DNA of 64,000 bases, from NCBI RefSeq assembly GCF_001625355.1, contig NZ_JSEE01000017.1, positions 1-64,000 of the forward strand, given 5' to 3'. This stretch comes from Marinomonas sp. TW1 (GTDB taxonomy: Bacteria; Pseudomonadota; Gammaproteobacteria; Pseudomonadales; Marinomonadaceae). Shown here one piece after another: positions 6,692-31,753 of this stretch. Below the pieces are notes generated by a model, which was given only the letters and a program-made list of their open reading frames with translations, was not told the origin of the DNA and made no database searches. Both the position numbers and the translations under genes were made by a program. Each line of letters starts with the position of its first letter. The first letter of the stretch is position 1.

Positions 6692-6748
6692 GTTTGGCCT
6701 CCTGTGTATGAAGTTGACCACCTCGTGAGGTTCGAATCTCAGTAAGGT

Positions 6749-6821
6749 GGTGGGTCTGAATCAGGTTCGAACTACCGCCACAGGAACGGCCAACCCGAAG
6801 GTTGCCCAACAAAGACCCACC
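6749..6821 (-). ncRNA. C4/P4-CI-like antisense RNA, module 1
   Basis: The minus strand starts GGTGGGTC and ends GACCCACC, closing a 73-nt domain. Inside is a UUCG-capped hairpin (CAACC-TTCG-GGTTG), then GGCGGTAGTTCGAACC. The single-stranded GTTCGAA can pair with TTCGAAC in two flanking leader segments (6886-6894 and 6729-6737). Size and layout match the P4 CI RNA (seqB between seqA and seqC) and the C4 RNAs of P1/P7, which repress antirepressor expression. The copy at 31497-31571 keeps the structure with compensating changes. Confidence 0.75.
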
Positions 6822-6843
6822 ATAACAGGCAAATCTCGGCCAC

Positions 6844-6864
6844 AAAAAAACACGCTCTGCGTGT
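6844..6864 (-). terminator. Terminator inside the rha leader
   Basis: ACACGC-AGA-GCGTGT followed by T7 on the minus strand, between the first target segment and the C4-like RNA. In P4-type immunity, pairing of the RNA with the leader promotes early termination; this hairpin suits that role. Confidence 0.8.
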
Positions 6865-7018
6865 TTTAGGCCGCTGTGAAAACGGGGTTCGAATCCCGGC
6901 ACTGGATTTTGCCAGTGCAAGGAGAATGTTAGATCAAGATTCGGGTGGGGTCAATTGCAACATTACCAAAAACCGATATATTGAGTTAACATATAATAAT
7001 TTATAAGGAGATAACTTA

Positions 7019-9262
7019 ATGACTTATGACTTTAGTCAGCTTACTGGAAATGAATTTGAATCTCTATGCAATGACTTGATATCTAAAAGAGAAGATATTT
7101 TTATTGAGAGATTTAAAGATGGAAAGGACGGTGGAATAGATGGTCGATTCCATGAAGCAGATAAAAGTACTGTAATAATACAATCAAAACACTACTTGAA
7201 ATCAGGCTTTAAACCACTCGTTAATAAACTAAAAAATGATGAACTAAAAAAACTAAAAAAACTTAACCCTTCACGATATATAGTTTCAACCTCAGTCCCT
7301 CTCAATCCACCACAGAAGGATGAAATAAAACGAGAGCTAGAGCCATATATCAAATCTACAAAAGACATTCTTGGGGCAACAGAATTAAATTCCTTGCTCT
7401 TACAGTACCCGGAAATAGAAGAAAACACATATAAACTTTGGATAAATAGCACCCAAGTATTAAAAACAATATTTAATTCGAAACAAAACCAAAACAACCA
7501 ATTAAAAATAAATAATTTTCTATCGAAATCAAAACTCTATGTAAGAACAAAAAATCATGAAGATGCCAAAGAAAAGCTAAATAATTTAAACACTGTAGTT
7601 ATAAACGGAAGCCCAGGGATTGGAAAAACAACTCTAGCGCAACAGTTAGCATTAGATTACATTGCAGAAGGATATTCTTTTTGCGTAATTGAAGACGATA
7701 TCAGTGATTTATATAAACAACTAAATACATCAGAAAAGCAAATTTTTTATTTTGATGACTTTCTTGGCGATGTTATTTTCAATTTAAACAATAGTGGAAA
7801 CAGAACACTAAAGTGTATAAATGAATTGAAAGAAGCAAAAAACACTAAATTTATCCTTACAACTCGAACCAACATTTTAAATCAAGCAAAATCAAGTCTA
7901 CCTAGTTACAAGTCAACAAACACTGAATCATATCAGTTTGAAATCCCAATACATTCATTAAGCAGAATAGATAAAGCAAAAATTCTTTATAATCACATTT
8001 GGTATAGTAATTTAAAAAAACCGAAAATTGAAAAGATCTATGAAAATAAGAACTATAAAAAAATAGTAGATCATCGAAACTTCAATCCAAGGTTAATTGA
8101 ATTTATTACAGATGAATATAAAACAAGAGATTTTTTGTCAGATGATTTTTGGACTTATATTACAGATACACTCAACAATCCTAGCGAAATATGGGATCAC
8201 GTAATTCAACATCAACTTACAAAAATTGAAAGGGAGCTAGTGATTTATATTTCTTTGTTCACATCGAGACATATAAGTGAAAATGATTTAGAAAACTTTC
8301 ATTACCTCTCAGCTCATGAAGATCCCACATTTAACGATTTAATAAAAAGTTTGACTGGATCCATTATTAATAGAGAACTAACCGAACAAAGAAAGATTAA
8401 AAATAAAAAAATTATTTTTTACCCTGCATCACACTACACATTATTCGACCCATCTATAAAAGATTATATTTTCAAAAAATACTCTTCTGAGCCATCACTT
8501 ATATCAAGACTAGCTTTAATTAAAAAATCTCCTAATGATATTGAAATAGCATTAAATGGAATGTACAGAAAAACAGCATCCCATGAAAATGAAAAACATA
8601 AAATTCAATTTATAGAAAGCATTTATTCCAATTTAGAAATTGAAAATGAAAATGAAAACTCTTTTAATTGCTATATCCTTAATAAAATTAAAGAGATGAA
8701 CAAAACGGGACTTTATAATGATATAAATTTATCACTTTTCAAAATAGCATTAAAAACAAAATTGAAAAATCTAGACATACATCAAATAAAGACCATAAAT
8801 TTAAATCTAAAAACTATAAGTATAGACTCTTTTAATCCTAACGAATCTGATGATTTTGAAAAATTGATTTTAAATCACAACAATAACATTGAAGACCTTA
8901 AAGAAATATCAAAGTTAATTAATCATTTAGAACCAAATGGAGGTGAACTATCAGGTTTTTTAGAGGATGAGTTCTCCACTTTATTATTTTCAGAAATCGA
9001 ACTAATAGCAGACCAAGAAGGTATCGAAATATATAAAGATGAATATGGCGAATATGATACATCAGAGCTTGAACAGTTAATAGATGAACAATTAAGTGAC
9101 CTAAAATCAAAAAACAATTTACGGAATTATGAGTTTATTGACGATTCAATTTTAGATCGATTTGTAGACGATGATCAATATAATGATGCAAAAAACAGCC
9201 TTTCTAATGATTTTGAGGATAATGATGATTCTGAGATTGATAGTATATTCGAAAGAGAGTAA
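7019..9262 (+). CDS. Restriction endonuclease-fused STAND NTPase (nSTAND3-like), likely anti-phage defence
   Basis: A 747-residue protein. Residues 1-~150 look like an Mrr/PD-(D/E)xK nuclease: NEFESLCNDLI, GGID41G, then Q55-S-K57. Residues ~190-400 form a P-loop NTPase with GSPGIGKTT at about 197-205, a Walker B FYFDDF at about 243-248 and the sensor-like LTTRT near 283. The rest is helical and Asn/Asp/Lys-rich with an acidic tail. The nuclease plus nSTAND order is known from bacterial immune receptors that sense a phage component and then cleave DNA. The gene is AT-rich, opposite to the tail genes, has AAGGAG 8 bases before ATG and a TATAAT at 6992-6997. The target is unknown. Confidence 0.85.
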   Translation: MTYDFSQLTGNEFESLCNDLISKREDIFIERFKDGKDGGIDGRFHEADKSTVIIQSKHYLKSGFKPLVNKLKNDELKKLKKLNPSRYIVSTSVPLNPPQKDEIKRELEPYIKSTKDILGATELNSLLLQYPEIEENTYKLWINSTQVLKTIFNSKQNQNNQLKINNFLSKSKLYVRTKNHEDAKEKLNNLNTVVINGSPGIGKTTLAQQLALDYIAEGYSFCVIEDDISDLYKQLNTSEKQIFYFDDFLGDVIFNLNNSGNRTLKCINELKEAKNTKFILTTRTNILNQAKSSLPSYKSTNTESYQFEIPIHSLSRIDKAKILYNHIWYSNLKKPKIEKIYENKNYKKIVDHRNFNPRLIEFITDEYKTRDFLSDDFWTYITDTLNNPSEIWDHVIQHQLTKIERELVIYISLFTSRHISENDLENFHYLSAHEDPTFNDLIKSLTGSIINRELTEQRKIKNKKIIFYPASHYTLFDPSIKDYIFKKYSSEPSLISRLALIKKSPNDIEIALNGMYRKTASHENEKHKIQFIESIYSNLEIENENENSFNCYILNKIKEMNKTGLYNDINLSLFKIALKTKLKNLDIHQIKTINLNLKTISIDSFNPNESDDFEKLILNHNNNIEDLKEISKLINHLEPNGGELSGFLEDEFSTLLFSEIELIADQEGIEIYKDEYGEYDTSELEQLIDEQLSDLKSKNNLRNYEFIDDSILDRFVDDDQYNDAKNSLSNDFEDNDDSEIDSIFERE

Positions 9263-9280
9263 TTAAAGGCGCCTTACTTG

Positions 9281-9306
9281 AAAAAAAGACACTCTTATGG
9301 AGTGTC
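9281..9306 (-). terminator. Terminator behind the STAND gene region
   Basis: GACACTC-CATAA-GAGTGTC followed by T7 on the minus strand. The same hairpin may also help end the plus-strand STAND transcript, though its T-tract is poor on that side. Confidence 0.7.
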
Positions 9307-9410
9307 CTATTAATATCATTATCATTTCATGCTATTTGGAATCAGATAAAAAACCAATCTATTTTCATCTGATCCCAAACTTATATTTGATTACCCAAAA
9401 TAACAGATAC

Positions 9411-9430
9411 AAAAAAACCGCTACTGCGGG
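9411..9430 (-). terminator. Terminator behind the DUF2335 gene
   Basis: CCGC-AGTA-GCGG followed by T7 on the minus strand, immediately after the stop codon at 9431-9433. Confidence 0.8.
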
Positions 9431-9979
9431 TTATTCTTCAGTGTCTTCTTTAATTTTGCCTTTATCAGGCTTGCTCGCATTAGGGTCAAACGCCCTATTT
9501 TTTTGTCCTAACAAAAAGGCAATAGCGAGAGCAACTAGTACAGTACTTAGACCAATAGGGACTGCTATATGACCTTTGTCAGCAAGATAAACAATTGCCA
9601 ATAAAACCAGTAAAACTACAGTTATTGCTGCATTTCTATTCCACTTAGATTCATTGTACTCATTCTCCTGCGCTTTGGTGATGATTCTTTCTTCCCGCTC
9701 TGCATTTTCACGCATCATTTCAAAGGTTTCTTTGGTGAAGCCTTCATAAACCCTTTCATAGTGCTCTAAATGAGCAGGCGGGGGAAATGGACCTGAATGC
9801 TGTTCTGATCGAACTGCCATCATCACCTTACGGCGTTCTTCAGGATTTTCACGAACAATCCTTTCTACATCTGGAATATCTTCCATGACAACAGATAAAG
9901 GCTCGCTTTCTTTAAGTTTTTCAATCTCTTGATCAACAATTTGGCGATCTTCTTGGGCTTCTTCCTGCCTATCACTCAT
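9431..9979 (-). CDS. DUF2335-family predicted membrane protein
   Basis: A 182-residue protein. The N-terminal half is strongly charged and ends in the DUF2335 signature SGPFPPPAHLEHYERV, followed by a helix rich in Glu and Arg. Two hydrophobic segments lie at about 115-133 and 139-158, with both ends probably on the cytoplasmic side. The family is common on prophages and other mobile DNA, without a settled function. Its ATG overlaps the preceding 69-residue gene by 4 bases (ATGA), so the two are coupled. It sits on the tape-measure side of the T-U island. Confidence 0.8.
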   Translation of the reverse strand: MSDRQEEAQEDRQIVDQEIEKLKESEPLSVVMEDIPDVERIVRENPEERRKVMMAVRSEQHSGPFPPPAHLEHYERVYEGFTKETFEMMRENAEREERIITKAQENEYNESKWNRNAAITVVLLVLLAIVYLADKGHIAVPIGLSTVLVALAIAFLLGQKNRAFDPNASKPDKGKIKEDTEE

Positions 9980-10185
9980 TGGGCTGGAATACCTTTTTTA
10001 ACATTCTTAAGATAAGCGCGACCATCTACAAACTCGGCTTGTTTCTTAAACGCCAAATTAAAGTCGGAGGAAAATCTTTCAGTGGCTCTACGATGGATTT
10101 CACCTTTTTTAGGCACCAATGCCATATAATCTGTCCGAGGAAAAAAGTTTAAAACACTCCCCATTCCTCTTAAGAAATTACTCAT
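9976..10185 (-). CDS. Small basic protein coupled to the DUF2335 gene
   Basis: A 69-residue basic protein (LRGMGSVLNFFPRTDY, then KKGEIHRRATERFSSDF), no membrane segment. It reads into the DUF2335 gene with an ATGA overlap, so the pair forms a small operon behind the inverted-repeat region at 10214-10322. Function unknown. Confidence 0.65.
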   Translation of the reverse strand: MSNFLRGMGSVLNFFPRTDYMALVPKKGEIHRRATERFSSDFNLAFKKQAEFVDGRAYLKNVKKGIPAQ

Positions 10186-10213
10186 ATCACGTACTCCATA
10201 GTCAATTTAATAT

Positions 10214-10322
10214 GCACTAGATAGTGCGAATAAACTGGCAAAACTTTGGGTAACTAGCTACATAATAGACAAAAACGATGGAGCTAGTTATCTACACACT
10301 ATGTGTATTTCGCACTAAAGTG
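10214..10322. promoter_or_regulatory. Nested inverted repeats upstream of the DUF2335 pair
   Basis: Outer arms TAGTGCGAA (10222-10230) and TTCGCACTA (10309-10317) enclose inner arms TAACTAGCT (10251-10259) and AGCTAGTTA (10282-10290). Small palindromes GCACTAGATAGTGC (10214-10227) and CACTAAAGTG (10313-10322) overlap the outer arms. It probably holds the promoter and operator of the minus-strand pair; a recombination site is also possible. Confidence 0.5.
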
Positions 10323-10407
10323 ACGGAGTCGTCAACATATAAATTAACATAATTAAGTGCATTTCTTATTTTTTGAAACATCTAACAACCTACGTATGAA
10401 ACCTTCC

Positions 10408-13374
10408 CTAACTCCCCCGCTTATCCGTCAAGCTCCCATCCGCCCTTGTGACGACGTCCATATTGCCCATCATGCCATGTGCAAATTCGGCTTTGAGTCT
10501 TGCTATCACTTGGTCGCTGACTTGTTGGTCGTAGGCTGGGTTGCCTGTTGGCGTTAAGTGGAGCACTGGCGCGAAGGTCATGCTTTTGTTGTTGTTTTGT
10601 AGCTGTTGGCTTTGCTTGGCGACGGCGTCTGGTGCGGGTTGGTCGGTTTTGTCGTCTGAGAACCATGTGCCAATTTTGCTGCCGATCCACTCGCCTAAAG
10701 AACCGCCACCCATACCGCCCGCGATGGAGCCAACGAGGCCACCAATGGCGGTGCCGATCACGGGGACAACGGAGCCAATGGCCGCGCCTGCTAGGCCACC
10801 TGCGGCGGCTCCGCCCATGCCGCCGAGCATGTCCCCTGCGGTGGCGCCTATTTCGGTGCAGGTGCCGCCAGACATGGCCGAAGCGAGGCTGACGCCTTGC
10901 ATGGCCATGTCGAGTGGTCGGAAGAATCGCCCTGCGCCTTTTAAGCCACTGAGTTTTCCTAACTTGCCCAACCTGCCAAAGCGGCCACCTGCGTTGGCGC
11001 GTTTAGTTGGGCTGTTGCGGTCTGCTATTTGGTTTTCGTAGGCGCGTAGGCCTGCGAGTCGGTTGCTTGTTCGGCTGTTTCCTAGTGTGTTTCCTCTTTT
11101 AGTTGTTCTTGCGCCTGCCCTTCTTGCTACTCTTCCGCCATAGCCCGCGCCTGCGCCGAGGCTGTTGAGTTTGCGGTTTAGGCGATCCAGTGAGCGGGAT
11201 GCTCGGTTGGCGCTTTGGGTGGTTTGGTCTGTGCTTAGGTTGAGTTTGGTTTTGCCAAGGTTGAGTCGGTCACGCCCGTTGCCCAAGGTGAGTTTGGCGA
11301 GTTTGAAGGCGATGGCACCGGCTTTTACGACGGCGATGGCCGCGGCGACGCCAAGCAAGCTGCTGGTGAGTTGCGGGTTGGCTTCGGCAAAGTTGGCCAC
11401 GCTGTCCACCACGGACATGAGCGGCGGCAAGACGGCATCGAGCACGGGCAAGAGTCGGTCGCCCAGTACGATGGTCATGCGGTCGAATTTGGCACCGAGC
11501 ATGGCGAGTTTGTGGCCACGGGTGGCGGCGCGGTTGGCGTATTCGTCGTTGACGCTGTTGGTGCGATCGGCTTGGTTGGCGACTTTGGCAAAGGCGGCGA
11601 CGAGGCCGTTTTTATCGTCGTCCAGTGTGGTGACGAGTTTGGCAACGGCGCCTTTTACTTCTTCCCCAAAGAGCTGCGAAATCACTGCGCCTCGGTCTGT
11701 GGCGTTGACGTCTTGCAAGCCTCGCATGACTTCCACAAGGGTACCTTGGGCGTCTTGCTGCATCATGTCCGCTAGTTCTTCAGCATTGAAGCCGATGCGC
11801 CCCATGGCATCTTGCTGGGCGGCGGTGGCGGCGTAGCCTGATGTGAGTCGTCCGGTGATGTTTTTCAGGGCGGTGGCCGCGACCTCTTGAGTCGCACCAC
11901 CTGCAATGAGGCTGGCAGACAAAGCGGCGGTTTGGTTGTAATTTAAGCCTGCGCCCATGGCGGTGGAGCCTTGGCGTACCATGACGGCGGCAATGTCTTT
12001 TGCCTTGGCGTTCATGTTGTTGCTGAGGTAGTTGGTGCTGTCGGCTAGGTCTAGGGCGTGCTTTTGGGTGAGGCCCATGGCGGCGCGCCATGTGGCGAGT
12101 GTGCTGCCGGCTTCTTCGGCGGATACGTCCCACGCGACGCTCATTTTGGTGGCGGATTCGGCAAATTGTAAGAGTTGGTCTTTTTCGATGCCGGATTGGC
12201 CTGCGGCGGTGACGATGTCGGCGATGCCTTTTTGTTCTACGCCTAGCCGCCCTGCCAGTTTCATCATTTCTGTGCGGTATTGGGCTTCTTCTTTTTGGTC
12301 GGTGAAGTTGACGACTTTTTTGACGTCGGCAAAGGTGTTTTCGTAATCGACGGCGCGTTTGCCTGCCATGATGAGTGGCGCGGCTTTTAGGGTGAGGCCA
12401 ACGGCTTGGCCGATGAGTTCGCTTTTTTGGGCGTTTCTGTCTGCTATGCGCCCTTTTAGGGTTTGGATTTTTTGCAGTTTGGCTTTTTGGCGGTCCAGTG
12501 CCTGGCTGGCTTGGTCGGTTTGTTTGGCGAGTTTGAGTTCTTGTGCGCCAAGTGAATTCATTTTTATGCCAGCGCTGCTCATGTCGCGCTTGAGGCCGCC
12601 TAGTTCTTTGGCTTGTTTGCCGTAGGCGTTGGTAAGCTGGGTGCTTTTGAGTTGGGCGTTTTTGAGCTGGGCTTGTTCTTGTTTGTAGGCTTTTTCGGCG
12701 GCTTTTTTGGCTTGGGTGAGTTGTTGTACCTTGGCGGTGGCGGCTTTGACTTGTTGTGAGTGCGCACCGTAGGCGGCGGCCGCTTTTTGGGCGTTTTGTT
12801 GGGCGTTGGCCAGTTCGATCGCTTGTTGTTTTGCGGCGGCGGCTTTTGCGCTGGTAAGTTGTTTTACTTTGGCGGTGGCGACTTTGGCTTGCTTGGACTC
12901 GGCACCGTAGGCTTTGGCAGCGTTTAGGGCTTGTTTTTGGGCGTTGGCCAGTTCGGCCGAGCGTTGTTTTGTGGCGGCACTTTGGGCTTGGGTGAGTTCT
13001 TTTACGTGTTGTTTGGCTTGGGCTAGCTGTTGTGATTGTGCGCCTTGGGCTTCGGCCAGTTTTATGACGTTGCGCTCGGCTTGGGCTAGGTCTTTGGTGT
13101 GTTGTGCCAGTGCGGCTTTGGCGTTGGTTTGGTTTTGTTTGAGTTGGTTGGTTTGTTGGGCGGCTTGTTTCATGGCCGCGCGGGTTTGGTCTAGGCCTGC
13201 GGTGAGTTTTTTGAAGCGGGTGATGAGGCTTTGTTGGTCGCTTAGGCCTTTTAGGTGTTGGTCGGTTTGGGTGATTTGGTGTTCTAGCTTCCCTGCTGTT
13301 TGGATGATGTTTTTGGCGGGTTTGGTGAATTTGTCGACGGCGGAGAGTGCGATGGAGATTTTGGAGTCAGCCAC
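10408..13374 (-). CDS. Phage tail tape measure protein T
   Basis: A 988-residue protein. Residues ~1-320 are coiled coil, dominated by Ala, Gln and Lys with repeated AKVKQLT and ELANAQ segments. Residues ~330-620 match the phage tape-measure core (GKRAVDYENTFADVKKVVNF, AGQSGIEKDQLLQFAE, AATALKNITGRLTSG). Hydrophobic stretches lie near 660-690 and in a Gly/Ala-rich region near 870-930. The protein sets tail length and helps DNA entry. It follows E/E' as in P2, but U is 8 kb away because of the inserted island. Confidence 0.9.
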   Translation of the reverse strand: MADSKISIALSAVDKFTKPAKNIIQTAGKLEHQITQTDQHLKGLSDQQSLITRFKKLTAGLDQTRAAMKQAAQQTNQLKQNQTNAKAALAQHTKDLAQAERNVIKLAEAQGAQSQQLAQAKQHVKELTQAQSAATKQRSAELANAQKQALNAAKAYGAESKQAKVATAKVKQLTSAKAAAAKQQAIELANAQQNAQKAAAAYGAHSQQVKAATAKVQQLTQAKKAAEKAYKQEQAQLKNAQLKSTQLTNAYGKQAKELGGLKRDMSSAGIKMNSLGAQELKLAKQTDQASQALDRQKAKLQKIQTLKGRIADRNAQKSELIGQAVGLTLKAAPLIMAGKRAVDYENTFADVKKVVNFTDQKEEAQYRTEMMKLAGRLGVEQKGIADIVTAAGQSGIEKDQLLQFAESATKMSVAWDVSAEEAGSTLATWRAAMGLTQKHALDLADSTNYLSNNMNAKAKDIAAVMVRQGSTAMGAGLNYNQTAALSASLIAGGATQEVAATALKNITGRLTSGYAATAAQQDAMGRIGFNAEELADMMQQDAQGTLVEVMRGLQDVNATDRGAVISQLFGEEVKGAVAKLVTTLDDDKNGLVAAFAKVANQADRTNSVNDEYANRAATRGHKLAMLGAKFDRMTIVLGDRLLPVLDAVLPPLMSVVDSVANFAEANPQLTSSLLGVAAAIAVVKAGAIAFKLAKLTLGNGRDRLNLGKTKLNLSTDQTTQSANRASRSLDRLNRKLNSLGAGAGYGGRVARRAGARTTKRGNTLGNSRTSNRLAGLRAYENQIADRNSPTKRANAGGRFGRLGKLGKLSGLKGAGRFFRPLDMAMQGVSLASAMSGGTCTEIGATAGDMLGGMGGAAAGGLAGAAIGSVVPVIGTAIGGLVGSIAGGMGGGSLGEWIGSKIGTWFSDDKTDQPAPDAVAKQSQQLQNNNKSMTFAPVLHLTPTGNPAYDQQVSDQVIARLKAEFAHGMMGNMDVVTRADGSLTDKRGS

Positions 13375-13377
13375 GGT

Positions 13378-13548
13378 TTACCTCTTTTGTATTCCTAGTT
13401 TGGCGGCGGCTAGGTGGTAGCGGCGCATGGCTTCGTCGATGCGCCAGTTTAAGATTTCAGACGGTGGTACGTGGTAAACCAGCGGGATGACGTCGGTTAG
13501 GGTTTCTATGTCTTTGGGTGAAAGTAAGCCGCCGGTTGTTGCAAAAAA
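13378..13548 (-). CDS. Tail assembly protein E' (reached by -1 frameshift from E)
   Basis: The open frame after the slippery site encodes FATTGGLLSPKDIETLTD, then PPSEILNWRIDEAMRRYH and ends at 13378. It has no start of its own in good context and fits the E' extension of P2-like phages. The E+E' fusion would span 13378-14096, about 240 residues. It acts as a chaperone that loads the tape measure into the growing tail. It ends 3 bases before the T start. Confidence 0.8.
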   Translation of the reverse strand, partial: FFATTGGLLSPKDIETLTDVIPLVYHVPPSEILNWRIDEAMRRYHLAAAKLGIQKR

Positions 13549-14096
13549 TCGATGAGTCGCTCTTGCAGTTGGTTCCAGTCTGGCAGGCTGAGGCGTTCTA
13601 GTTCGCTTTGGCTGAAGCCTGTGCAGCTTGAGCTGATGAAGATGGTGCGCTCCCATTCGTTGGTGTGGGTGTCCATTAGGTCGGTGGTGGCAACGGTGGG
13701 CGGTTTGAGGGTGTATTGGGTTTTCTGTTGGCCGCTGTCGCTTTGGATGGGGATGAGTAAGGTTGGCGCGGTGTTGTCGAACTCGCCTTCTATGAGCTGG
13801 CTGGCGGTGTTGTTCATGAGTTCTAGGACGTGGTTTTGGATGCTGGTGTAGTCTGGGGTGACGAGGCTTTTGATTTCTTTGTCGCTGAGGCTGGTGCTGG
13901 CGCTGATGCAGGCACGGATGAGTTGGGTGTCGTTGTCTTTGTGCTGTTGGGACAGTTCGCGGTGCTGGCCCATGGTGAGGGTTTGGCAATGCACGCGGGT
14001 GATGGGTTCGTCTTTGTCGCTTTTGGTTGGCCAAACGAGTGTGTGGGTTGGTGGTTGGAACATAGGGTTTCTCTTTTTTGTGTTGGGGGTTGCCAC
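13506..14096 (-). CDS. Phage tail assembly protein E
   Basis: A 196-residue protein in the position of P2 gpE, between tube FII and E'/T. It begins MATPNTKKRNPMFQPPTH and contains the repeated phrase VHCQTLTMGQHRELSQQHKD typical of tail assembly chaperones of this group. It ends at TAG (13506-13508) in the unshifted frame. A fraction of ribosomes should shift at 13542-13548 to make E+E'. Confidence 0.8.
   Translation of the reverse strand: MATPNTKKRNPMFQPPTHTLVWPTKSDKDEPITRVHCQTLTMGQHRELSQQHKDNDTQLIRACISASTSLSDKEIKSLVTPDYTSIQNHVLELMNNTASQLIEGEFDNTAPTLLIPIQSDSGQQKTQYTLKPPTVATTDLMDTHTNEWERTIFISSSCTGFSQSELERLSLPDWNQLQERLIDFLQQPAAYFHPKT
13542..13548 (-). other. Programmed -1 frameshift site TTTTTTG
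   Basis: The minus strand reads GAT TTT TTG CAA in the E frame. T TTT TTG is the same heptamer known for gpE/E+E' in phage P2, and the -1 frame continues openly into E'. Confidence 0.85.
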
Positions 14097-14150
14097 CTAG
14101 TGGTTTAGGTGGCGCTGTGGTTTGGGATGATCGGTTTTGCTAACGAAGGC

Positions 14151-14657: not shown

Positions 14658-14658
14658 G

Positions 14659-16031: not shown

Positions 16032-16047
16032 GGCTTTCTCCAGACGT

Positions 16048-16067
16048 AAAAAAACCGCTTGCGCGGC
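16048..16067 (-). terminator. Terminator between the baseplate/fibre and sheath units
   Basis: CCGC-GCAA-GCGG followed by T7 on the minus strand. The sheath-tube-T unit therefore probably has its own late promoter. Confidence 0.8.
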
Positions 16068-16099
16068 TGGGTGTTTGATTCTTTAAATTGGGGAAATGA

Positions 16100-16387: not shown

Positions 16388-16397
16388 AAAAATCTCC

Positions 16398-21931: not shown

Positions 21932-21975
21932 AAACGCCTCATGTGATTTTGATTAAGTATTTGGAAGGAGAAAGG

Positions 21976-24409: not shown

Positions 24410-25712
24410 CGTGTATTCCTCTTGTTTGTTTGGCGTCTTGACTGCGTTTCACCCCATCGAGGTGTTTGTCCAGTGTCTTACCACGGCTATTGGAGATTTC
24501 TTCCAGCGATGTGATGTCGTTCTGAACTTCGAGCACGAGCGCTTTGGCCGCTTTAAGTGGGTCGATTTCTTCCCATTCTGGCCAAATCCATGTTGGGTTC
24601 AGGTAGGTGTATGGATTCTCAAAGTAGTTGGGTAAGCCGTCTGTGTTGACGAGGTGATAAGCGTCAATAAACCAGCCAAGCACACGGTTAAAAGCAGGGC
24701 CAAGCATGATGTCCCTTAGCTGACCAATCAGCCTACGGTGGTTGATCATGCCCGCGCGAATACTGGAATAGTTCACCTGAGTTAGATCACCTGTCAGCAT
24801 TTCGTAGGTAATACCCAGTAAACCGGCGATCATACGCAGCACTTGATTGTTGTGTTCTTGATAATTACCCGCGATTTCCGCTGGCGATGCGGTCTTAACC
24901 TCTTTCACGCCATTTAGGAACGTCACGCCACCAGCATGATGAACCAATTTACTTGGTGACTTCTGGCTGTTTGGGCCTGTCGCTGTTTGGCTCACTTCGG
25001 CTTCTTTGAGAGCAAAGACCTGTTGCCCTACGCGTTTCATTCGAGATTTGATTTCAACCGTTTGGTTGTCTTGGTATTGCTTGGCAAAGTCGGCCCCTGG
25101 GGAAATCCAAGGTTGGGCGGTACTTTGTGACACATGCACTACATCTCGCAGGTGGATGACATCTTCTGCTGGCAGCCAGTTCACCGAGTCTTCATCAAAG
25201 TCTGGATGGTCTCTTGGCAGTTTGTAAAAAGCGTACTTTTTGATTTTGCCGTTCTTGGCGTACATGATGCCGCCACGAACGTAACTATTAGACCCTGTTA
25301 GCTCCAAATCGATTGCCAAACTCAGCGGACTTACCACTTGGATTTGCAAAGGAATTGGGTGCAAGGTACGTCGACGAACAAGAAAAGCACTGCCGTCTAG
25401 TAACATGGTCATCACGGCTAACGCTTGAACGCCCGCTAAGTTGGTGTTGTCGTAGAAGTCACAATACAGCTCCCATTCTTGAAAGCTTTTGATGAAGGCT
25501 TCGCTGAATAACTCAGGATCAAATACGGGTTTGGCGCCACCACCAATACAGCTGGCACGAAACCGAGACGCGCCCACTCGCAGCAATGGGTTGTTTCGAA
25601 TGAGGTGATGGCTGGCGGTGATCTCTTTTAAAAGATGACTTTCGCTTTTTTCGTTATCATGCAATTCAGCCCCTTTGAATAAGGGGGATTTGGCAACACT
25701 GGAATAACTCAA
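24357..25712 (-). CDS. Phage portal protein (lambda gpB family)
   Basis: A 451-residue protein with family phrases LLRVGASRFRASCIGGG-type N-terminus, WISPGADFAKQYQD and TQVNYSSIRAGMINHRRL. It forms the dodecameric DNA channel of the head. The only plausible start is TTG at 25712, overlapping the gpW stop (TTGA), so it is translationally coupled. The C-terminus is very acidic (DDERSDDDDD). Confidence 0.88.
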   Translation of the reverse strand: MSYSSVAKSPLFKGAELHDNEKSESHLLKEITASHHLIRNNPLLRVGASRFRASCIGGGAKPVFDPELFSEAFIKSFQEWELYCDFYDNTNLAGVQALAVMTMLLDGSAFLVRRRTLHPIPLQIQVVSPLSLAIDLELTGSNSYVRGGIMYAKNGKIKKYAFYKLPRDHPDFDEDSVNWLPAEDVIHLRDVVHVSQSTAQPWISPGADFAKQYQDNQTVEIKSRMKRVGQQVFALKEAEVSQTATGPNSQKSPSKLVHHAGGVTFLNGVKEVKTASPAEIAGNYQEHNNQVLRMIAGLLGITYEMLTGDLTQVNYSSIRAGMINHRRLIGQLRDIMLGPAFNRVLGWFIDAYHLVNTDGLPNYFENPYTYLNPTWIWPEWEEIDPLKAAKALVLEVQNDITSLEEISNSRGKTLDKHLDGVKRSQDAKQTRGIHDAPSTAIDDERSDDDDD

Positions 25713-25942
25713 AATAGCACCTCAACATCAACGCTTTCCATCAGCGGCGTGGTTTGCAAATCGCTGATCATTTGACGCTCTAAAGCACGTAACTCTGACA
25801 AGCTCACTTCCGTGTACTGCATGGCCGTTCGACCACCTTGTGGGTTGGTGTACTCCACTCTCACTTTGCGCTTGCCTTGCACTAGGTCGGTGATGGCTTG
25901 CTGAACGATTTTGAGATTGTCTTCAGTTGAGTAAATCGGCAT
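25709..25942 (-). CDS. Head-tail connector protein gpW
   Basis: A 77-residue protein of the lambda gpW family: IVQQAITDLVQGKRKVRVEYT and the C-terminal helix LSELRALERQMISDL. It joins portal and tail. It lies between terminase and portal as in lambda and overlaps both by a few bases. Confidence 0.85.
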   Translation of the reverse strand: MPIYSTEDNLKIVQQAITDLVQGKRKVRVEYTNPQGGRTAMQYTEVSLSELRALERQMISDLQTTPLMESVDVEVLF

Positions 25943-27876
25943 TAGTAATCTCCATAATCTGACGTTTCGTAGTAATCGCCATAATCGTTCTCTATCACGT
26001 CATCCGTGAGTTTGTGGGCATTCGGATCTATTAGGCCAAGTGGGTCTTGTGGGGATGCATGTTTGATTTCTGGGCGCAGGAAGTCCCACAACCACAACAC
26101 GTACACGAGTAAATCCCATGGTTCGTTACGCTTTTGGTCTGGCTTTTTGTCCCACTTCACATTGCTGCCACTGCCTTTCAGTTCTTCAGCGGTAAGCATT
26201 TGGAAGTAGTTCAGGTCAAATACATCACTCACGGGAAAGTGAATGTAGTTTTTACCGGGGGCTTCGTTATTCAGTCGCTCTGCGGCGCGGTTCTTGAGCT
26301 GATGCACGTTAAGGCTGCGGTACTCACATTTCACCTCGGGGTGCACTTTAAAACTGAGCGTGAATTCTGGCTTGAACTTGGTTTTGGCATTCACTTCACC
26401 ACGAATGGCGAAGATCCAACCTTGATACGGCGCGCAAAACTCCAGCATGGCTTTCCATGCGTGGCCATTACAGTCCATGGCCGCCGCAAACACACCAATG
26501 GATTGCCCATCGGATAAGGTAAATTCGGTTTCCAATTCATGGATGAGGCTTTGTTGCGTACTTGTGTCTTCAGGATCGCCATGAACTTTGCCATAGTGGA
26601 TGGCCCACATTTCACCACGGTCACCAATCGCCCAAAAGTGGTAATCAAACCGGTTCTTTTGGGTATCAATGGTGGCCAGTACGCAGCGCGTTTGCTCAGG
26701 CAGGCTTTCCATTGGCGAGTAGTATTCTCGTCGTTGGTATAAGGTCTCAAAATTATTGAGTTTATGAATTCGCGCGGCATCGGAATATTCGACACCGACC
26801 TTCGTGTTCATGAAGGTCTGCATCTTTCGTGGGTCTTTTTTCGCCTTATCGTATTCAGCGGCAATCGATGGCAACGAGGTATTGGGGTTGTCGTTGTAGG
26901 CTGACCAAATATGAAAACCTGCGTCTATTTTGCCGCGTTCGTTGGTGTCCCCTGGTTCACCACATTTACAGCACAGTGCGCTGCCTGTTTCGTCCCATTG
27001 TTCTGGTACCTGATGAACACCGCAGCATTCAAACTCTCGCGTGGCACGCCATTCGCCCGCTTCCACCATATTGAACTTATGGTGCTCTTCTATCTTGCCG
27101 CTGCAATGGATGCAAACGAAATGAGCGCCTTTGTAATTCTTAGGTGAGTATCGAAAGTGCTCTAACTTTAAGCGCTGCTTAAAACCGCAATGTGGGCAAG
27201 GGACATACAAGTAACGCTGATCGGTTTGCAGAAACTCGCGGGTAATCTTACAGGTACCGGCTTCTTTCGGTGTGGAGCCAAGTACAATCTTACGCTGGCC
27301 TTCACTTTCGGTTCGAGTGATCGCCAAATCAATTGGGTCACCCTCTTTGTCTACGTTATCTGTCCAACCCGATATCTCATCCATGAAAAGATACTTGATG
27401 GTCACCATCCTAAAACTACTGGCAGACGTGGCCCAGACAATGGACAAATCACCACCAAAAAAGCTCTTCTCAGTAGTGGTGTTTTTGCCGTACAACTTTG
27501 ATATCACGGGTAAGCAGTGATTGAACACCTTACCTATTTCTTTCGTTGCAAACTTTTCGGCATCACCCTGAGTATTCTGAACAATCATGATGTTGCTAGG
27601 GTCATTGGAGACCAGCCATGCCACCGACGTATTGATAAAAATGGCATAACCAACCCGAGCACTCTTGGATAAAACGATCTTTTCGATGTAAGGCGATTCC
27701 ATTGCCAAGAGCCAAGCCTTTTGAAACGACTTAGGCGGGTATATCTGAGCATCGGAATTATAGTTTTCCTTGCTCCACGGGATTAGCGGTTTCTTCTTCG
27801 GCGGGGACGTAATGCTTAGAATATTTTTCGAGAATGTTCTCGATAAGCGACGGTAATTCATCATTTCCAAGCTCAT
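25942..27876 (-). CDS. Terminase large subunit (GpA family)
   Basis: A 644-residue protein of the lambda gpA family. The ATPase domain has the unusual Walker A-like KSARVGYA at about residue 67 and the Walker B IKYLFMDEISG. Zinc-like pairs follow (CPHCGFKQ, CIHCSGK; CCKCGE). The nuclease domain has AAMDCNGHAW. It packages DNA into the head. The frame starts at 27876, 119 bases inside the small subunit gene; slightly later ATGs are also possible. Confidence 0.9.
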   Translation of the reverse strand: MSLEMMNYRRLSRTFSKNILSITSPPKKKPLIPWSKENYNSDAQIYPPKSFQKAWLLAMESPYIEKIVLSKSARVGYAIFINTSVAWLVSNDPSNIMIVQNTQGDAEKFATKEIGKVFNHCLPVISKLYGKNTTTEKSFFGGDLSIVWATSASSFRMVTIKYLFMDEISGWTDNVDKEGDPIDLAITRTESEGQRKIVLGSTPKEAGTCKITREFLQTDQRYLYVPCPHCGFKQRLKLEHFRYSPKNYKGAHFVCIHCSGKIEEHHKFNMVEAGEWRATREFECCGVHQVPEQWDETGSALCCKCGEPGDTNERGKIDAGFHIWSAYNDNPNTSLPSIAAEYDKAKKDPRKMQTFMNTKVGVEYSDAARIHKLNNFETLYQRREYYSPMESLPEQTRCVLATIDTQKNRFDYHFWAIGDRGEMWAIHYGKVHGDPEDTSTQQSLIHELETEFTLSDGQSIGVFAAAMDCNGHAWKAMLEFCAPYQGWIFAIRGEVNAKTKFKPEFTLSFKVHPEVKCEYRSLNVHQLKNRAAERLNNEAPGKNYIHFPVSDVFDLNYFQMLTAEELKGSGSNVKWDKKPDQKRNEPWDLLVYVLWLWDFLRPEIKHASPQDPLGLIDPNAHKLTDDVIENDYGDYYETSDYGDY

Positions 27877-28345
27877 TTAAACTGTCAAAAGCGCCCTCAA
27901 TAACTTGCTCAATCGATTTCACCTCTTTGGGAGATAGCTTTAAGCGTTTTTGTAACTGGTTGGGTACGTCTAAAAGCTTCCTTCTGAACATCGAAAGTGG
28001 GCCATTTACCAACTCTAACAAGGCGTCATAAGGCACTAATTCACCGCTTTCACGGCCATTTTGTAGATGGAGTTTTATGGCCGCCTGCTTTTCCTTCTCT
28101 TTTTTCCAATCATCAAGGGTTTTGGGCTGTTTACTGTTTCTACTGGTTCCCCCCGTTTTCCTCCCATTATTCGCTCTCAACTGTCGGAGACTTTCGGACA
28201 GATAATTCACATAAGCATGCACCGATTTTTCGATATCAATTTTGCCTGAATCATCATAAACAATGGCATAGCCTTCTTTTTCATGATTGCGAATCGTCTT
28301 CACATTCACATCTAAAGCAGCGGCAAGCTGTGCTTTCGTAGCCAT
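27758..28345 (-). CDS. Terminase small subunit (Nu1-like)
   Basis: A 195-residue protein. An N-terminal winged-helix segment (KAQLAAALDVNVKTIRNHEKEG) is followed by a charged linker and a helical region (KEKEKQAAIKLHLQNGRESGEL), the order found in Nu1 of lambda. It should bind the packaging site, expected just upstream. It has an overlap with the large subunit gene. Confidence 0.85.
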   Translation of the reverse strand: MATKAQLAAALDVNVKTIRNHEKEGYAIVYDDSGKIDIEKSVHAYVNYLSESLRQLRANNGRKTGGTSRNSKQPKTLDDWKKEKEKQAAIKLHLQNGRESGELVPYDALLELVNGPLSMFRRKLLDVPNQLQKRLKLSPKEVKSIEQVIEGAFDSLNELGNDELPSLIENILEKYSKHYVPAEEETANPVEQGKL

Positions 28346-28646
28346 GAGGGTTTATCCTCTATTCATATGAGTTATGGTCAAATGGGAATGGGTAATAGAA
28401 GCCATATTTTAAAAAATTTCTCTGAGTCCGCGCGTCTATGACTCGCAGAAAAAAGGGCCCTATGTAGAGTACCTTTTACATATAAATCAACAACTTACAG
28501 CATAATCAAAAAACTAACCAAATGATCAAAAATAGCCTCAAAAACAGCATATTTGCACATTTAATGCACAAACAAAGGGTGAGCTATTTTGTTAGCGTTT
28601 TGTGGTTTTTTGGATGAAATGAAAAACGCTCAAATTTAGACAAAAA
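28346..28646. other. Non-coding region upstream of terminase (probable packaging-site region)
   Basis: No gene is seen. An inverted repeat CTGAGTC (28422-28428) and GACTCGCAG (28440-28448) flanks CGCGCGTCTAT. A GGGCCC follows at 28455-28460, then AT-rich DNA. In lambda-like phages cos lies immediately upstream of the small terminase gene, so this is the likely cos region; the nick sites cannot be given. Confidence 0.35.
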
Positions 28647-28817
28647 TCACGATTCGTTGAGAGCTTTTTTTACTTCAGCAACGAGCTTATCATCGAGAGT
28701 ATTCGTGCTCTTTTTTGTCAGGAATTCGGCCACATGTAAGAACACCGAAATTAACACCTTTTCAGTCACCAATTTCGTGAGCATTGTCTTCAAAATCGCC
28801 AATAAAATCGTCGTCAT
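28647..28817 (-). CDS. Small phage protein of the lysis region
   Basis: A 56-residue ORF with GGAGAAG 5 bases before ATG. It is hydrophobic at first (TILLAILKTMLTKLV), then charged (AEFLTKKSTNTLDDKLV). Similar small proteins are common beside phage holins and endolysins, without known function. It is 15 bases from the endolysin stop and is probably co-transcribed. Confidence 0.65.
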   Translation of the reverse strand: MTTILLAILKTMLTKLVTEKVLISVFLHVAEFLTKKSTNTLDDKLVAEVKKALNES

Positions 28818-28832
28818 TTTGCTTCTCCAGAT

Positions 28833-29336
28833 TTAATCTAACCCATATAACTCAGATGGGAAGTTATTGATAAACTCTTCAACCGTTCCAGCACCCAAAT
28901 GAGTGTTGTAATGATCTTTCCAATATTCCCCCAAAGCCGCTATATCATTGGCCTGAGGCATAGACTGAGGTTTACGCCAGTAGTGAACTCGACACATAGC
29001 CACGGCGTATTTCATGTTGCTAATCAGCTCAAGCGGGTCAGGTACTCCACTCACCTCATACACATCATCCGCTTCACCAGACAACAAACCGCGTAAATCA
29101 CTGATAAGCGCTTGTTTGTAATGAATAAAGTGCACCCACAGATCATGATGCGTCGCAGGCTCCATTTGGATAATGCCCAACGCTGGGCCCTTTCCTAGCT
29201 GTTTCAGATAGACTGCACGCGATTCCTGCGTGATCGTTCCCATAACCAACTGATCAGCCGCCAGGCTGTACATGCCAAGGTTTGAAAGTGTGGGAATCAC
29301 AACAAACTCACGCAATTGCTCTAGGTTTAAACTCAT
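28833..29336 (-). CDS. Putative endolysin (transglycosylase-like)
   Basis: A 167-residue protein. Glu38 in GTITQESR, followed by LGKGPALGIIQMEPATHHDLW, fits the catalytic Glu and the G-x-x-Q-x region of lytic transglycosylases seen in phage lysis proteins. It should cleave peptidoglycan at cell lysis. No signal peptide is present, so a holin is needed. It overlaps the holin gene by 4 bases (ATGA). Confidence 0.72.
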   Translation of the reverse strand: MSLNLEQLREFVVIPTLSNLGMYSLAADQLVMGTITQESRAVYLKQLGKGPALGIIQMEPATHHDLWVHFIHYKQALISDLRGLLSGEADDVYEVSGVPDPLELISNMKYAVAMCRVHYWRKPQSMPQANDIAALGEYWKDHYNTHLGAGTVEEFINNFPSELYGLD

Positions 29337-29635
29337 GACAAACCTCGCTTAAATCGATCGATGAATAGCTTTATTGCCTCGTCTCCCATCAAGCCTGCAA
29401 CACCTGCCATAAACCCAGTAAGTGGCCCGCCCATATTGAGAGAAGTACACAAAAAATAGGTCAACATCCCAAGGAAGCCGCCAGTAAACACAGCGATAAG
29501 CATATGAATTAATGAGAATTTCTTTGCTTTGTACTGAAAGTCACGAAGATATTTCACAGCACCACCTAGCACTCCGACCACCACGAAAACTGCAGTTTGT
29601 ATAAGCTCATCGGGCAGGAATTTCATAAAGTGCAT
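29333..29635 (-). CDS. Phage holin (LydA-like)
   Basis: About 100 residues, started at 29635 or 29626, because the longer frame runs back through two terminators. Three hydrophobic segments are seen (LIQTAVFVVVGVLGGAV, SLIHMLIAVFTGGFLGML, GFMAGVAGLMGDEAI) and a basic C-terminus (DRFKRGLS). This is the plan of class I or LydA-type holins, which permeabilise the inner membrane so the endolysin can act. Directly followed by the endolysin gene. Confidence 0.75.
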   Translation of the reverse strand: MHFMKFLPDELIQTAVFVVVGVLGGAVKYLRDFQYKAKKFSLIHMLIAVFTGGFLGMLTYFLCTSLNMGGPLTGFMAGVAGLMGDEAIKLFIDRFKRGLS

Positions 29636-29648
29636 CCAGTCCAGAAAC

Positions 29649-29707
29649 GAAAAAGCCCCGCACATTGCGAGGCCCAGAAATGACAAAGCCCCGCAACAAG
29701 CGAGGCT
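29649..29707 (-). terminator. Tandem duplicated terminators upstream of the holin
   Basis: Two near-identical hairpins: GCCTCGC-AATGT-GCGGGGC followed by T5 (29649-29673), and AGCCTCGC-TTGTT-GCGGGGCT followed by TT (29684-29707). The unit is duplicated with a period of about 35 bp. They insulate the lysis operon from transcription coming from the island. Confidence 0.75.
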
Positions 29708-29816
29708 CTTAATTGTGTTGCCGCCACACACAAGAATGACAGCTTGAATAAACTGTAACGGCTAATTCCTAGGCTCGCAAGCCTCACGCGCGTATTTATC
29801 GAATGTCGTTCTCTTC

Positions 29817-29912
29817 TTATGAAAGCGACATTTTATGGTTAAAGCCTTGTATTTGTTGGGCTAGAGCAAAGCGGTTTAACCACTCAATGGCGGCATGTTG
29901 GCGGTAAATCAC
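29817..29912 (-). CDS. Possible 31-residue peptide or gene remnant
   Basis: A GTG-started frame encoding IYRQHAAIEWLNRFALAQQ and ending at TAA 29817-29819. The composition looks coding, but no clear ribosome site is seen. It may be the end of a decayed gene. Confidence 0.25.
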   Translation of the reverse strand: MIYRQHAAIEWLNRFALAQQIQGFNHKMSLS

Positions 29913-29947
29913 AACTCTTTTTTAAGGAAAACGTTTCATTCAGGCAC

Positions 29948-29968
29948 AAAAAAACCACCCGAAGGTGG
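29948..29968 (-). terminator. Intrinsic terminator
   Basis: CCACC-TTCG-GGTGG followed by T7 on the minus strand, upstream of the small ORF and lysis genes. Confidence 0.8.
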
Positions 29969-30095
29969 AGCAAAAATCTATCAACAATATGAATGCACCT
30001 ATTTTCAATCACAAAAATCGTACAAAAAACAATCGATCAGATCTATTTTATTGGTTATATTTTGATCTACATTAATAATAGGAGCATAAATAATC

Positions 30096-30767
30096 ATGGA
30101 AAATTCAAATAGTACTACCAAGTTCCAAGTATACAATATTAATGGCATTGCCTTATGCGATGCTGAAGGCAACAACCTTAGCCCATTTAAAGACAGAGAC
30201 TACAAAGTGGAAGGCGTTGTGGGCAACGGTGCCATATATGAAGTTAGCAAAGAGGGTTTGCTAACAAATCTACTGGCGACTGTAAGTTCAGATGGCACAT
30301 TTCATATCAATGAAACACGAAATAATAGTGAAAGTCTTATGTGCCGAATTGTCTCATCAGGCTATACATCTATAGACTTCTTAGCCTCTCCGAAGATTGA
30401 AGCGATAAAAGTCAAACTATGGAAACTACACTCACCGCTCTATAACGCACATCAGCCTGATGTAGACTTCATTTGGTGGAAGCGACCTGTAGGCCAAGTC
30501 GGTAGAGAAATAATTTTTCGATCTGATGGAATCATGGCATTAAAGAATAATACTAATGAATGGGAGTTCTCAAGGTATAGAACTACTTATAACGATAATA
30601 GTAGAGGTTTTTCTATTTCATCAAAAAGTTTTACATTTGATAACTCTAGTAACTGGGCACAGGATTCTACTAATCCTACATACAATGTCGATGTAAACAA
30701 AAACCTTATAGAAACCCCACAAGGTTCCTCAGTACCAATGCCAGTTACTTTATATCAATATAATTAA
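30096..30767 (+). CDS. Unknown plus-strand protein beside the lysis module
   Basis: A 223-residue soluble protein with no recognised family. It looks beta-rich with many aromatic and Asn/Ser residues (FHINETRNNSES, DVDFIWWKRPVGQVG, GIMALKNNTNEWEFSRYR). AGGAG lies about 11 bases before ATG. It reads against the phage late genes, is AT-rich and is bounded by terminators (29948-29968 and 30841-30860), all typical of a lysogenic-conversion gene. Function unknown. Confidence 0.7.
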   Translation: MENSNSTTKFQVYNINGIALCDAEGNNLSPFKDRDYKVEGVVGNGAIYEVSKEGLLTNLLATVSSDGTFHINETRNNSESLMCRIVSSGYTSIDFLASPKIEAIKVKLWKLHSPLYNAHQPDVDFIWWKRPVGQVGREIIFRSDGIMALKNNTNEWEFSRYRTTYNDNSRGFSISSKSFTFDNSSNWAQDSTNPTYNVDVNKNLIETPQGSSVPMPVTLYQYN

Positions 30768-30840
30768 ATCTAACCCCATTGATAATAGAACGTTTTATTA
30801 ATTTACAATAACGTAAAGCTTGACCGAAAAAAACTTAAAC

Positions 30841-30860
30841 CAAGGGGCTTTCGCCCCTTG
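30841..30860. terminator. Terminator between the 223-residue gene and KilA-N gene
   Basis: CAAGGGGC-TTTC-GCCCCTTG hairpin between convergent genes; it can serve both. Confidence 0.7.
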
Positions 30861-30872
30861 TTGCTCCCTGCT

Positions 30873-31436
30873 CTAACCCTCCCCGAAGTGTCTTCCTGTG
30901 GCGTTTTTGACGCGTTCGATGGTTTGGTCGACCCATGCGGGGTTGGTTTGGATTTTGGCGAGTTGTTGTTGGTAGTTTCGGATGGTTTGAATCATGTTCA
31001 TGATGTCGGTGGCGGAGACGACGGCGATGCTTTCGGTGATGCCTAGGGATTTGGCGACGTCGTTAATGAGTTTGAGTTTTTCATCGTCTTGGATGGGGTT
31101 GGGTAGGCTTTGTTGCACCGGTTCGGGTTCTGGCGGTTGTTCTGTTTGGGCTTGATCGAAGGCGCGGATGACTTCTAAGTTAAACTTGGGGCTGATCCAC
31201 ATGGCGTAAGCGTAAACCAGTTCTTTGCAGACATAGGTTCCAACGCCCTGTTTTGCTTTAATAGCCGGAATTCCGGCTATTTCAATTTCAGCTAACAGCT
31301 CTTTTGTTTGTTGGTTGTTTAAAAAGTAATTTGGACGATGCTTATTTTCGGCACCAGCCGCTTTATGAAGATCATTAAGGGAATACAATCCGTCGAGTGT
31401 GCGGATGTCTTTTGAAGCAATCATTAAGTGAGCCAT
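30873..31436 (-). CDS. KilA-N-domain antirepressor-like protein
   Basis: A 187-residue protein. The N-terminal ~90 residues match the KilA-N DNA-binding domain (YSLNDLHKAAGAENKHRPNYFL, then GVGTYVCKELVYAYAMWISPKF). The C-terminal part (TIRNYQQQLAKIQTNPAWVDQTIERVK) resembles that of Rha at 6089-6691. KilA-N proteins occur in phage antirepressors and P1 kilA. AGGAGG lies before ATG. Its leader is the second C4-like RNA module, so its expression is probably blocked in the lysogen. Confidence 0.85.
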   Translation of the reverse strand: MAHLMIASKDIRTLDGLYSLNDLHKAAGAENKHRPNYFLNNQQTKELLAEIEIAGIPAIKAKQGVGTYVCKELVYAYAMWISPKFNLEVIRAFDQAQTEQPPEPEPVQQSLPNPIQDDEKLKLINDVAKSLGITESIAVVSATDIMNMIQTIRNYQQQLAKIQTNPAWVDQTIERVKNATGRHFGEG

Positions 31437-31496
31437 CTATGGCCTCCTTTGGGTCATCATGACCACCTAAACTAAGGTCTCAATCTCAATAGAGGT

Positions 31497-31571
31497 GGTG
31501 GGTCAAATAACAGGTTGAGACTACCGCCCAAAGGCACGGCCTAGCCGAAGCTAGCCTGAAACCGACCCACC
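31497..31571 (-). ncRNA. C4/P4-CI-like antisense RNA, module 2
   Basis: Same plan as module 1: GGTGGGTC and GACCCACC close a 75-nt domain with an inner CTAGC-TTCG-GCTAG hairpin and the phrase GGCGGTAG. The pairing segment is GTCTCAA instead of GTTCGAA. Its two leader targets read TTGAGAC (31636-31644 and 31476-31484) instead of TTCGAAC. The inner hairpin also differs from module 1 with both arms changed. Compensated changes at two sites support real base pairing. Confidence 0.75.
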
Positions 31572-31592
31572 ATATAGGCGAATCTCAGCCAC

Positions 31593-31614
31593 AAAAAAAC
31601 ACGCGGAGCGTGTT
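31593..31614 (-). terminator. Terminator inside the KilA-N leader
   Basis: ACACGC-TCC-GCGTGT followed by T7 on the minus strand, in the same place as the terminator of module 1. Confidence 0.75.
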
Positions 31615-31753
31615 CTAGGCCGCTTTGGTAAACGGGGTCTCAATCCCGACACTGGATTTTGCCAGTGCAGGGAAATAGTAGATCAGAAAGGATGAGAGGT
31701 CAACTGGTTACAAAACGCAACATAAAAAGTAAAGATAGCGTAAACACTTAGGC

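Follow-up and report, generated by a model that had tools for sequence, protein, structure and literature searches.

Phages P1 and P7, which are described as heteroimmune (PMC12197685), differ at two bases in each of two short segments of their C4 antisense RNA. These segments are the heptamer key a' (CTGTCAA in P1, CTGCTAA in P7) and the key b' in the P3 loop (TTTCACTAACG and TTTCACAATCG, respectively), and the targets change to match. The annotated order in the P1 record is a1, b1, C4, a2, b2, where a1 and b1 are the upstream targets of the two keys and a2 and b2 the downstream targets. The CI RNA of P4 is cut from its own transcript and pairs with sites on both sides (PMC4825925). A 2025 review treats C4 and isrK, an RNA studied in Gifsy-1, as separate entries (PMC12197685).

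Here we describe two C4 modules in a 64,000-nucleotide stretch of DNA from Marinomonas sp. TW1 (the window), located in the leaders of rha (module 1) and of a KilA-N gene (module 2) of a prophage. The sequence reads as C4 immunity in which a single prophage has two specificities, predicted to be orthogonal, and the arrangement recurs. Many further matched sets in relatives suggest that phages keep their switches apart by a mix-and-match RNA code. We assign a probability of about 0.85 to the reading in which both modules act as antisense immunity switches of the C4 type and the difference between their keys gives the prophage two orthogonal channels of immunity. Among the literature matches listed, which comprised titles and abstract openings and covered few subscription journals, no paper described a prophage with several C4 modules whose keys differ and match their own targets.

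Two C4 modules with different keys

The window was scanned with cmscan against Rfam 15, using the cut-offs of the C4 (RF01695, 45 bits), isrK (RF01394, 50 bits), and c4-a1b1 (RF03163, 46.7 bits) models. Four matches lie above cut-off, two to isrK and two to C4, and both modules are on the minus strand. Each runs from a sigma-70-like promoter through isrK (hairpin, target loop, and terminator), C4, a second target, and a ribosome site to the gene. The first-pass annotation of this DNA had proposed that the two leaders share the order hairpin, target 1, terminator, C4-like RNA, target 2, and ribosome site; both leaders conform to it, and its leader coordinates agree with the isrK-to-start-codon stretches to about a dozen bases. 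Its suggestion that these are C4 RNAs was borne out by the covariance model at both sites, and the keys that it had named match their upstream and downstream targets exactly in each module. The arms of the UUCG hairpin, said to differ between the modules with pairing kept, do so in the cmscan alignments. The second key, b', was absent from that annotation; its partners are the ribosome site (b2) and a site past a1 (b1), as annotated in P1.

In module 1 (all coordinates of both modules are on the minus strand), a promoter-like site (TTGACC, 17 nucleotides, TAACAT; 6926-6954) precedes an isrK-type leader RNA that has an intrinsic terminator at its end (6845-6918; 66.3 bits). The loop of isrK hairpin 2 contains a1 (TTCGAAC, 6887-6893), followed by b1 (CACAG, 6874-6878), a 5-nucleotide complement of b'. 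The C4 antisense RNA (6743-6827; 56.8 bits) carries b' in its P3 loop (TTCCTGTGG, 6778-6786) and then a' (GTTCGAA, 6766-6772). Past it lie a2 (TTCGAAC, 6730-6736), an exact match to a', and b2 (CACAGGA, 6700-6706), a 7-nucleotide complement of b' that overlaps the ribosome site of rha (6089-6691; 200 amino acids; Pfam PF09669, Phage_pRha, E 5e-27; PHROG anti-repressor and Rha families).

Module 2 is built in the same way. Its promoter-like site (TTGACC, 17 nucleotides, TACTAT; 31675-31703) is followed by an isrK-type leader RNA, again with an intrinsic terminator at its end (31594-31668; 65.6 bits), with a1 (TTGAGAC, 31637-31643) in the hairpin loop and b1 (CCAAAG, 31623-31628), a 6-nucleotide complement of b'. 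Within the C4 antisense RNA (31491-31577; 53.0 bits) are b' in the P3 loop (TGCCTTTGGG, 31527-31536) and a' (GTCTCAA, 31515-31521); a2 (TTGAGAC, 31477-31483) matches a' exactly, and b2 (CCCAAAGG, 31446-31453), at the ribosome site, is an 8-nucleotide complement of b'. The gene behind it encodes a KilA-N protein of 187 amino acids (30873-31436; Pfam PF04383, E 1.6e-21; PHROG transcriptional regulator and anti-repressor families). Both rha and KilA-N thus fall into antirepressor-class families, and their role as antirepressors is putative.

In both modules the loop of the isrK hairpin holds a1, which matches a' exactly, and a2 is located 6 or 7 nucleotides past C4. When the flanks were dinucleotide-shuffled in 20,000 trials per module, a1 and a2 occurred together once for module 1 and five times for module 2. 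By comparison with the C4 ends in the P1 record, the processed RNAs would be about 6821-6746 (module 1) and about 31571-31494 (module 2), and a GG is present at the 5' end expected of a C4 processed by RNase P (about 77 nucleotides). The coordinates of the promoter-like sites were derived by hand; a regular-expression scan found the same form in 33/47 modules of the genus.

The likeness to P1 extends feature by feature, as the first-pass annotation had expected: promoter, a1, b1, C4, a2, b2, and gene start come in the same order, and both keys are present. Moreover, the window modules differ from each other in the same two segments, a' and b', as P1 does from P7. On the other hand, the prophage of the window carries two modules whose keys differ, and the genes directly behind C4 are rha and KilA-N, whereas in P1 they are icd and then ant. 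The resemblance to the P4 CI RNA, with its seqA and seqC, is at the level of general logic alone.

Keys and targets change together

Among the matches listed, C4 was found at 251 places, a few of them below cut-off; the counts that follow cover 246 of these modules, from 68 genomes, for which flanks were retrieved, and leave out the other five. Exact a2 targets are present in 198/246 modules and exact a1 targets in 191/244, with both in 174/244, while keys taken from other modules fit in 0.31% (a2) and 0.57% (a1) of cases. The set contains 73 different a' heptamers, and 53 distinct target heptamers are exactly matched on both sides. The second key behaves similarly: b' has an exact complement of at least 6 nucleotides at b2 in 186/213 and at b1 in 178/213 modules, compared with 14.3% and 6.7% for foreign loops. 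The modules are mutually related, so these counts are not independent. The a' heptamer was read from one MAFFT column, which looks shifted by one in a small gene cluster (L007, L026, and L028), and the matches between key and target are therefore understated. Over some hundreds of modules, the sequences show the component parts, the order in which they come, and a matched pairing that co-varies.

For a second set, taken from viral contigs, the isrK core was the sole criterion (41 stretches with 43 leaders, 42 of them with enough flank). Exact a' was present in 41/42 leaders and a2 as well in 37/42; foreign keys fit in 0/630 comparisons.

Module 1 has a natural relative, G035:C23, in which all three heptamers have changed together: TTAGTAC replaces TTCGAAC in both targets, and its complement stands in the C4 RNA. 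Six of the 21 heptamer bases are changed, all of them compensated, against 7/244 elsewhere. The rha frame behind this relative is short, at 94 amino acids. Natural relatives that differ in their keys and few other places are thus available for direct comparison, and the RNA-keyed heteroimmunity of P1 and P7 becomes a code that is readable from sequence.

C4 is present in 22/48 genomes of the genus and in at least 62/390 genomes drawn from the order; 11 candidates were scored per genome in the order-wide search, so that these latter counts are lower bounds. Ten genomes picked for many matches and scored fully have 5 to 36 C4 copies each. Key and cargo are exchangeable: one gene type is found behind different keys, and one key before different gene types. 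The 41 target proteins of the genus that were scanned include AntA (11), KilA-N (11), Rha (9), and Bro-N (1).

Correct pairing goes along with an intact gene. In the genus, 40/41 paired modules and 2/6 mispaired ones are followed by a frame of 89 codons or more (Fisher P 0.0004), one of the six mispaired, L026, being partly an alignment offset. All 246 modules follow the same trend, with a frame of at least 59 codons behind 160/213 paired and 16/33 mispaired modules (P 0.003). Two mispaired cases, L020 with an intact gene and L023 with a decayed one, look like recombinants whose a1 retained another key. We also observed a locus, L018 (G020:C1:2012989-2014039), with two C4 modules that lie 965 bases apart and differ in their keys. 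The gene of the first has been lost, and the a1 loop of this module, TTAGTAC, is the key of the second.

Proposed mechanism

From this arrangement we infer transcription, processing, silencing, a sponge step, and immunity, which would proceed as follows. The promoter before isrK would drive a leader transcript; some transcripts would end at the isrK terminator and the rest would pass through C4 into rha or KilA-N. C4 would be cut out of the read-through transcript and would pair, by a' and b' together, with a2 and b2, so that the antirepressor-class gene has its ribosome site hidden. On new transcripts C4 may also pair with a1 and b1, possibly favouring a stop at the terminator. Free short isrK RNA could in turn soak up C4 and release the gene. 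Each C4 would silence its own gene as well as the gene of an incoming relative with the same keys, and since the two modules differ in both keys, each C4 would spare the other module.

Two channels or one

The claim of two separate RNA specificities made in the first-pass annotation agrees with the predicted pairing, which is much better for own than for foreign targets; heteroimmunity itself would follow from this. Predicted energies of the a' duplexes are -6.7 and -7.6 kcal/mol with own targets and -2.2 and -0.3 kcal/mol across the modules. A third C4 of the same genome, on another contig, has a third key, GTGGTAT, which its a2 matches at 6/7 positions. A scan of the genome limited to exact patterns resembling a2-b2 recovered the modules' own sites and two others for key 1 and none for key 2; by eye, neither of the two extra matches has a C4-type leader.

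Different keys on one contig are common. Among pairs of modules less than 65 kb apart on the same contig in the genus, 12/13 differ in a', one of the 13 shares it, and 13/13 differ in the key pair. Five viral contigs carry two or three leaders each and all their a1 heptamers are different, although there are just five such contigs; four of these eleven leaders have no exact a2 in the visible stretch, and one of the four also has no exact a'. Across all genomes, 87/1537 within-genome pairs share a' and a single pair shares both a' and the loop.

Several results weigh against the reading of two C4 immunity channels. Discrimination by the b key is weaker than by the a key, since b takes in the ribosome core: predicted b'-b2 energies are -12.6 and -13.6 kcal/mol for own targets and still -8.4 and -7.7 kcal/mol across the window modules, and the b' of module 2 reaches -11.1 kcal/mol with the b2 of the third module. 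The c4-a1b1 model, which scores 51.0 bits in the P1 leader, remains below its cut-off in both window leaders (34.6 and 41.1 bits; E 3.4e-7 and 3.1e-9, with 401 and 351 bases searched). Exact a2 is missing from 48/246 and exact a1 from 53/244 modules. In Gifsy-1, growth arrest by IsrK is stronger when STnc1160 is co-expressed, an effect not expected from a simple sponge model (PMC4825925). Finally, the idea that equal specificities are avoided within a genome found no support in permutations for the genus (g1) and two further groups (g53 and g70). Pairs predicted to cross-react numbered 0 vs 1.31 expected in g1 (P 0.26), 18 vs 17.7 in g53 (P 0.60), and 0 vs 1.08 in g70 (P 0.20); pairs equal in a' and loop, 0 vs 0.42, 1 vs 3.69 (P 0.08), and 0 vs 0.54; and pairs equal in a', 2 vs 3.31, 66 vs 69.9, and 5 vs 7.42. 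With so many keys in use, random draws would mostly differ as well, and the permutations show no significant avoidance.

The shared ribosome core of the b keys, with its appreciable cross pairing, raises the alternative that both modules are real C4 switches that silence each other's genes, pairing of b' with the ribosome site being sufficient, so that they are redundant rather than orthogonal. The poor pairing of a' across the modules speaks against such redundancy, and so do P1 and P7, which are only two bases apart in a' and two in b' and yet are called heteroimmune (PMC12197685). We regard cross-silencing as unlikely.

Two orthogonal channels in one prophage also presuppose that there is one prophage. 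Its right side is closed by an integrase gene beside a dihydrouridine synthase gene at 45.6 kb, and its left end is beyond the contig, which begins at the window start. The region has two integrase genes (34246-35403 and 44419-45561, minus strand), the latter adjoining the dihydrouridine synthase gene, and the one at 34.2 kb casts some doubt on the prophage borders. Together with two repressor-like genes and the missing left end, this would fit modules that sit in two adjoining elements. Nevertheless, the modules are separated by tape-measure, baseplate, portal, and terminase genes on one strand, and the five viral contigs with two or three isrK-core leaders each (9.6 to 51 kb) show that such combinations occur on single viral sequences. 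Two elements are accordingly an improbable explanation in our view, more so than cross-silencing.

isrK and C4 in Gifsy-1

In the Gifsy-1 leader, isrK, C4 (69.0 bits), and c4-a1b1 (48.1 bits) occur together, all above cut-off. In the P1 leader, C4 scores 68.8 bits and c4-a1b1 51.0 bits, with isrK, at 35.1 bits, below cut-off. The isrK RNA and the C4 target leader thus appear to be a single element to which Rfam gives two names. The Gifsy-1 C4 is located at 34131-34214 (L244), in the region called orf45, and the keys are ACGCCAA/TTGGCGT. The same a' is found in the Marinomonas modules L025 and L027. As in isrK-orf45-anrP of Gifsy-1, isrK is above cut-off in both window leaders, and module 2 is similarly placed upstream of lysis and terminase genes. 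The window differs from Gifsy-1 in having two modules and no frame of the orf45 type that reaches the gene.

Once the isrK and C4 entries are joined, the isrK mutants of Gifsy-1 can be read in another way. The published numbering fits a +1 at position 34316 of the Gifsy-1 record, as worked out by hand, because both orf45 start codons then land on ATG. With this numbering, G28A and G31A map to a1, and C159U and C162U map to a'. The reported values are 484 and 926 units for the a' changes, 93 and 218 for the a1 changes, and 4 for the wild type; double mutants that restore a1-a' pairing but not a'-a2 pairing gave 224 and 327 units (PMC4825925). Derepression is strongest when a' is changed and weaker when a1 is. 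An unpaired a2, acting as a second target, would explain the high double mutants. This reading is our own: the authors' account of the same mutants is that of two folds of one RNA, and neither C4 antisense nor C4 RNA was found as a term in the main text of that paper (PMC4825925).

The published mutational work on isrK-orf45-anrP (PMC4825925) in fact offers a model for the window leaders in which C4 has no role in trans: isrK folds onto the downstream RNA, and free isrK frees orf45, a small upstream reading frame whose translation is coupled to the gene. As judged by eye, the frame from the C4 ATG is 20 codons long in module 1 and 10 in module 2, ending inside C4 in both; it stops within C4 in 34/47 modules of the genus and ends near the gene start in 1/47. 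Such a cis switch also leaves a2 and b2 without a role, even though they are matched in most modules tested, and the Gifsy-1 double mutants are far above the wild type (PMC4825925). A purely cis-acting switch is therefore quite improbable for these leaders, and we favour silencing by C4 as an antisense RNA.

Genomes with many C4 modules

C4 modules are most numerous in three genomes from a different genus within the order, presumably Pseudomonas: G190, G289, and G326 have 36, 24, and 22, respectively (e.g., L106 and L171). In five genomes from outside Marinomonas, all of one genus of the order, small related genes lie behind 59 modules. When 56 complete small proteins of this group were scanned, 53 matched DUF6124 and 8 matched DUF3077; the name DUF6124 was not found in the literature searched. 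The group makes up 51/82 modules in the three richest genomes (19/36, 17/24, and 15/22). Both targets match at 6/7 positions or better in 51/59 of its modules, and all key pairs differ within each genome. For six sites in G289 (eight were fetched), three of which belong to the DUF6124 group, ten neighbouring proteins were scanned: six gave EamA, CorA, LacI-type, sugar transporter, DUF4432, and Glu/Leu dehydrogenase matches, and four gave nothing. There is no phage family among these ten neighbours, and no wider prophage test was made.

These genomes resemble the situation described for A. baumannii, where a single genome encodes numerous RNAs of the C4 type, the Group 1 small RNAs, whose a' loop varies (PMC5320573). 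Their targets were left open in that work, whereas here the keys have matched targets in cis, which we offer as candidate targets for the C4 RNAs of multi-copy genomes. It has been suggested for A. baumannii that such RNAs are mainly co-opted to control host mRNAs, and both the 22, 24, and 36 copies in our three genomes and the variable a' loop reported there would agree with this (PMC5320573). Yet matched cis targets account for the variable loop in most modules tested, and the exact a2-b2-like scan of the TW1 genome, which did not extend to A. baumannii, gave only the two key 1 sites that have no C4-type leader and none for key 2. Of the alternatives weighed here, control of host mRNAs as the main role seems to us the least probable.

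More tentatively, and at somewhat less than even odds, the C4 leader may be a portable riboregulator whose code has two parts, a' and b', and allows very many orthogonal channels. Prophages would stack such channels, locking their antirepressors separately. The 22 to 36 channels of some bacteria, many before DUF6124/DUF3077 genes and some at ordinary chromosomal sites, would then be a switch co-opted as a large gene-control system with private keys, and isrK would be its built-in sponge.

Genes and repeats near the modules

Divergent from module 1 is a gene for an Mrr-type nuclease with an nSTAND3 domain (7019-9262, plus strand), which matches the PADLOC candidate defence protein PDC-S73 (E 4e-205). 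A three-gene cassette is divergent from module 2 (31907-34253, plus strand) and includes a weak match to a membrane domain and a Double-GTPase 1 protein. Thus, each C4 module adjoins a possible accessory or defence cassette.

The stretch at 4017-6286 contains three copies of a sequence resembling the 3' end of rha, 80-92% alike, as if rha-like genes in the tail region had been duplicated and then trimmed. Three 138-base repeats lie within the tape-measure gene (12691-13104), the second and third being 76% and 65% alike to the first.

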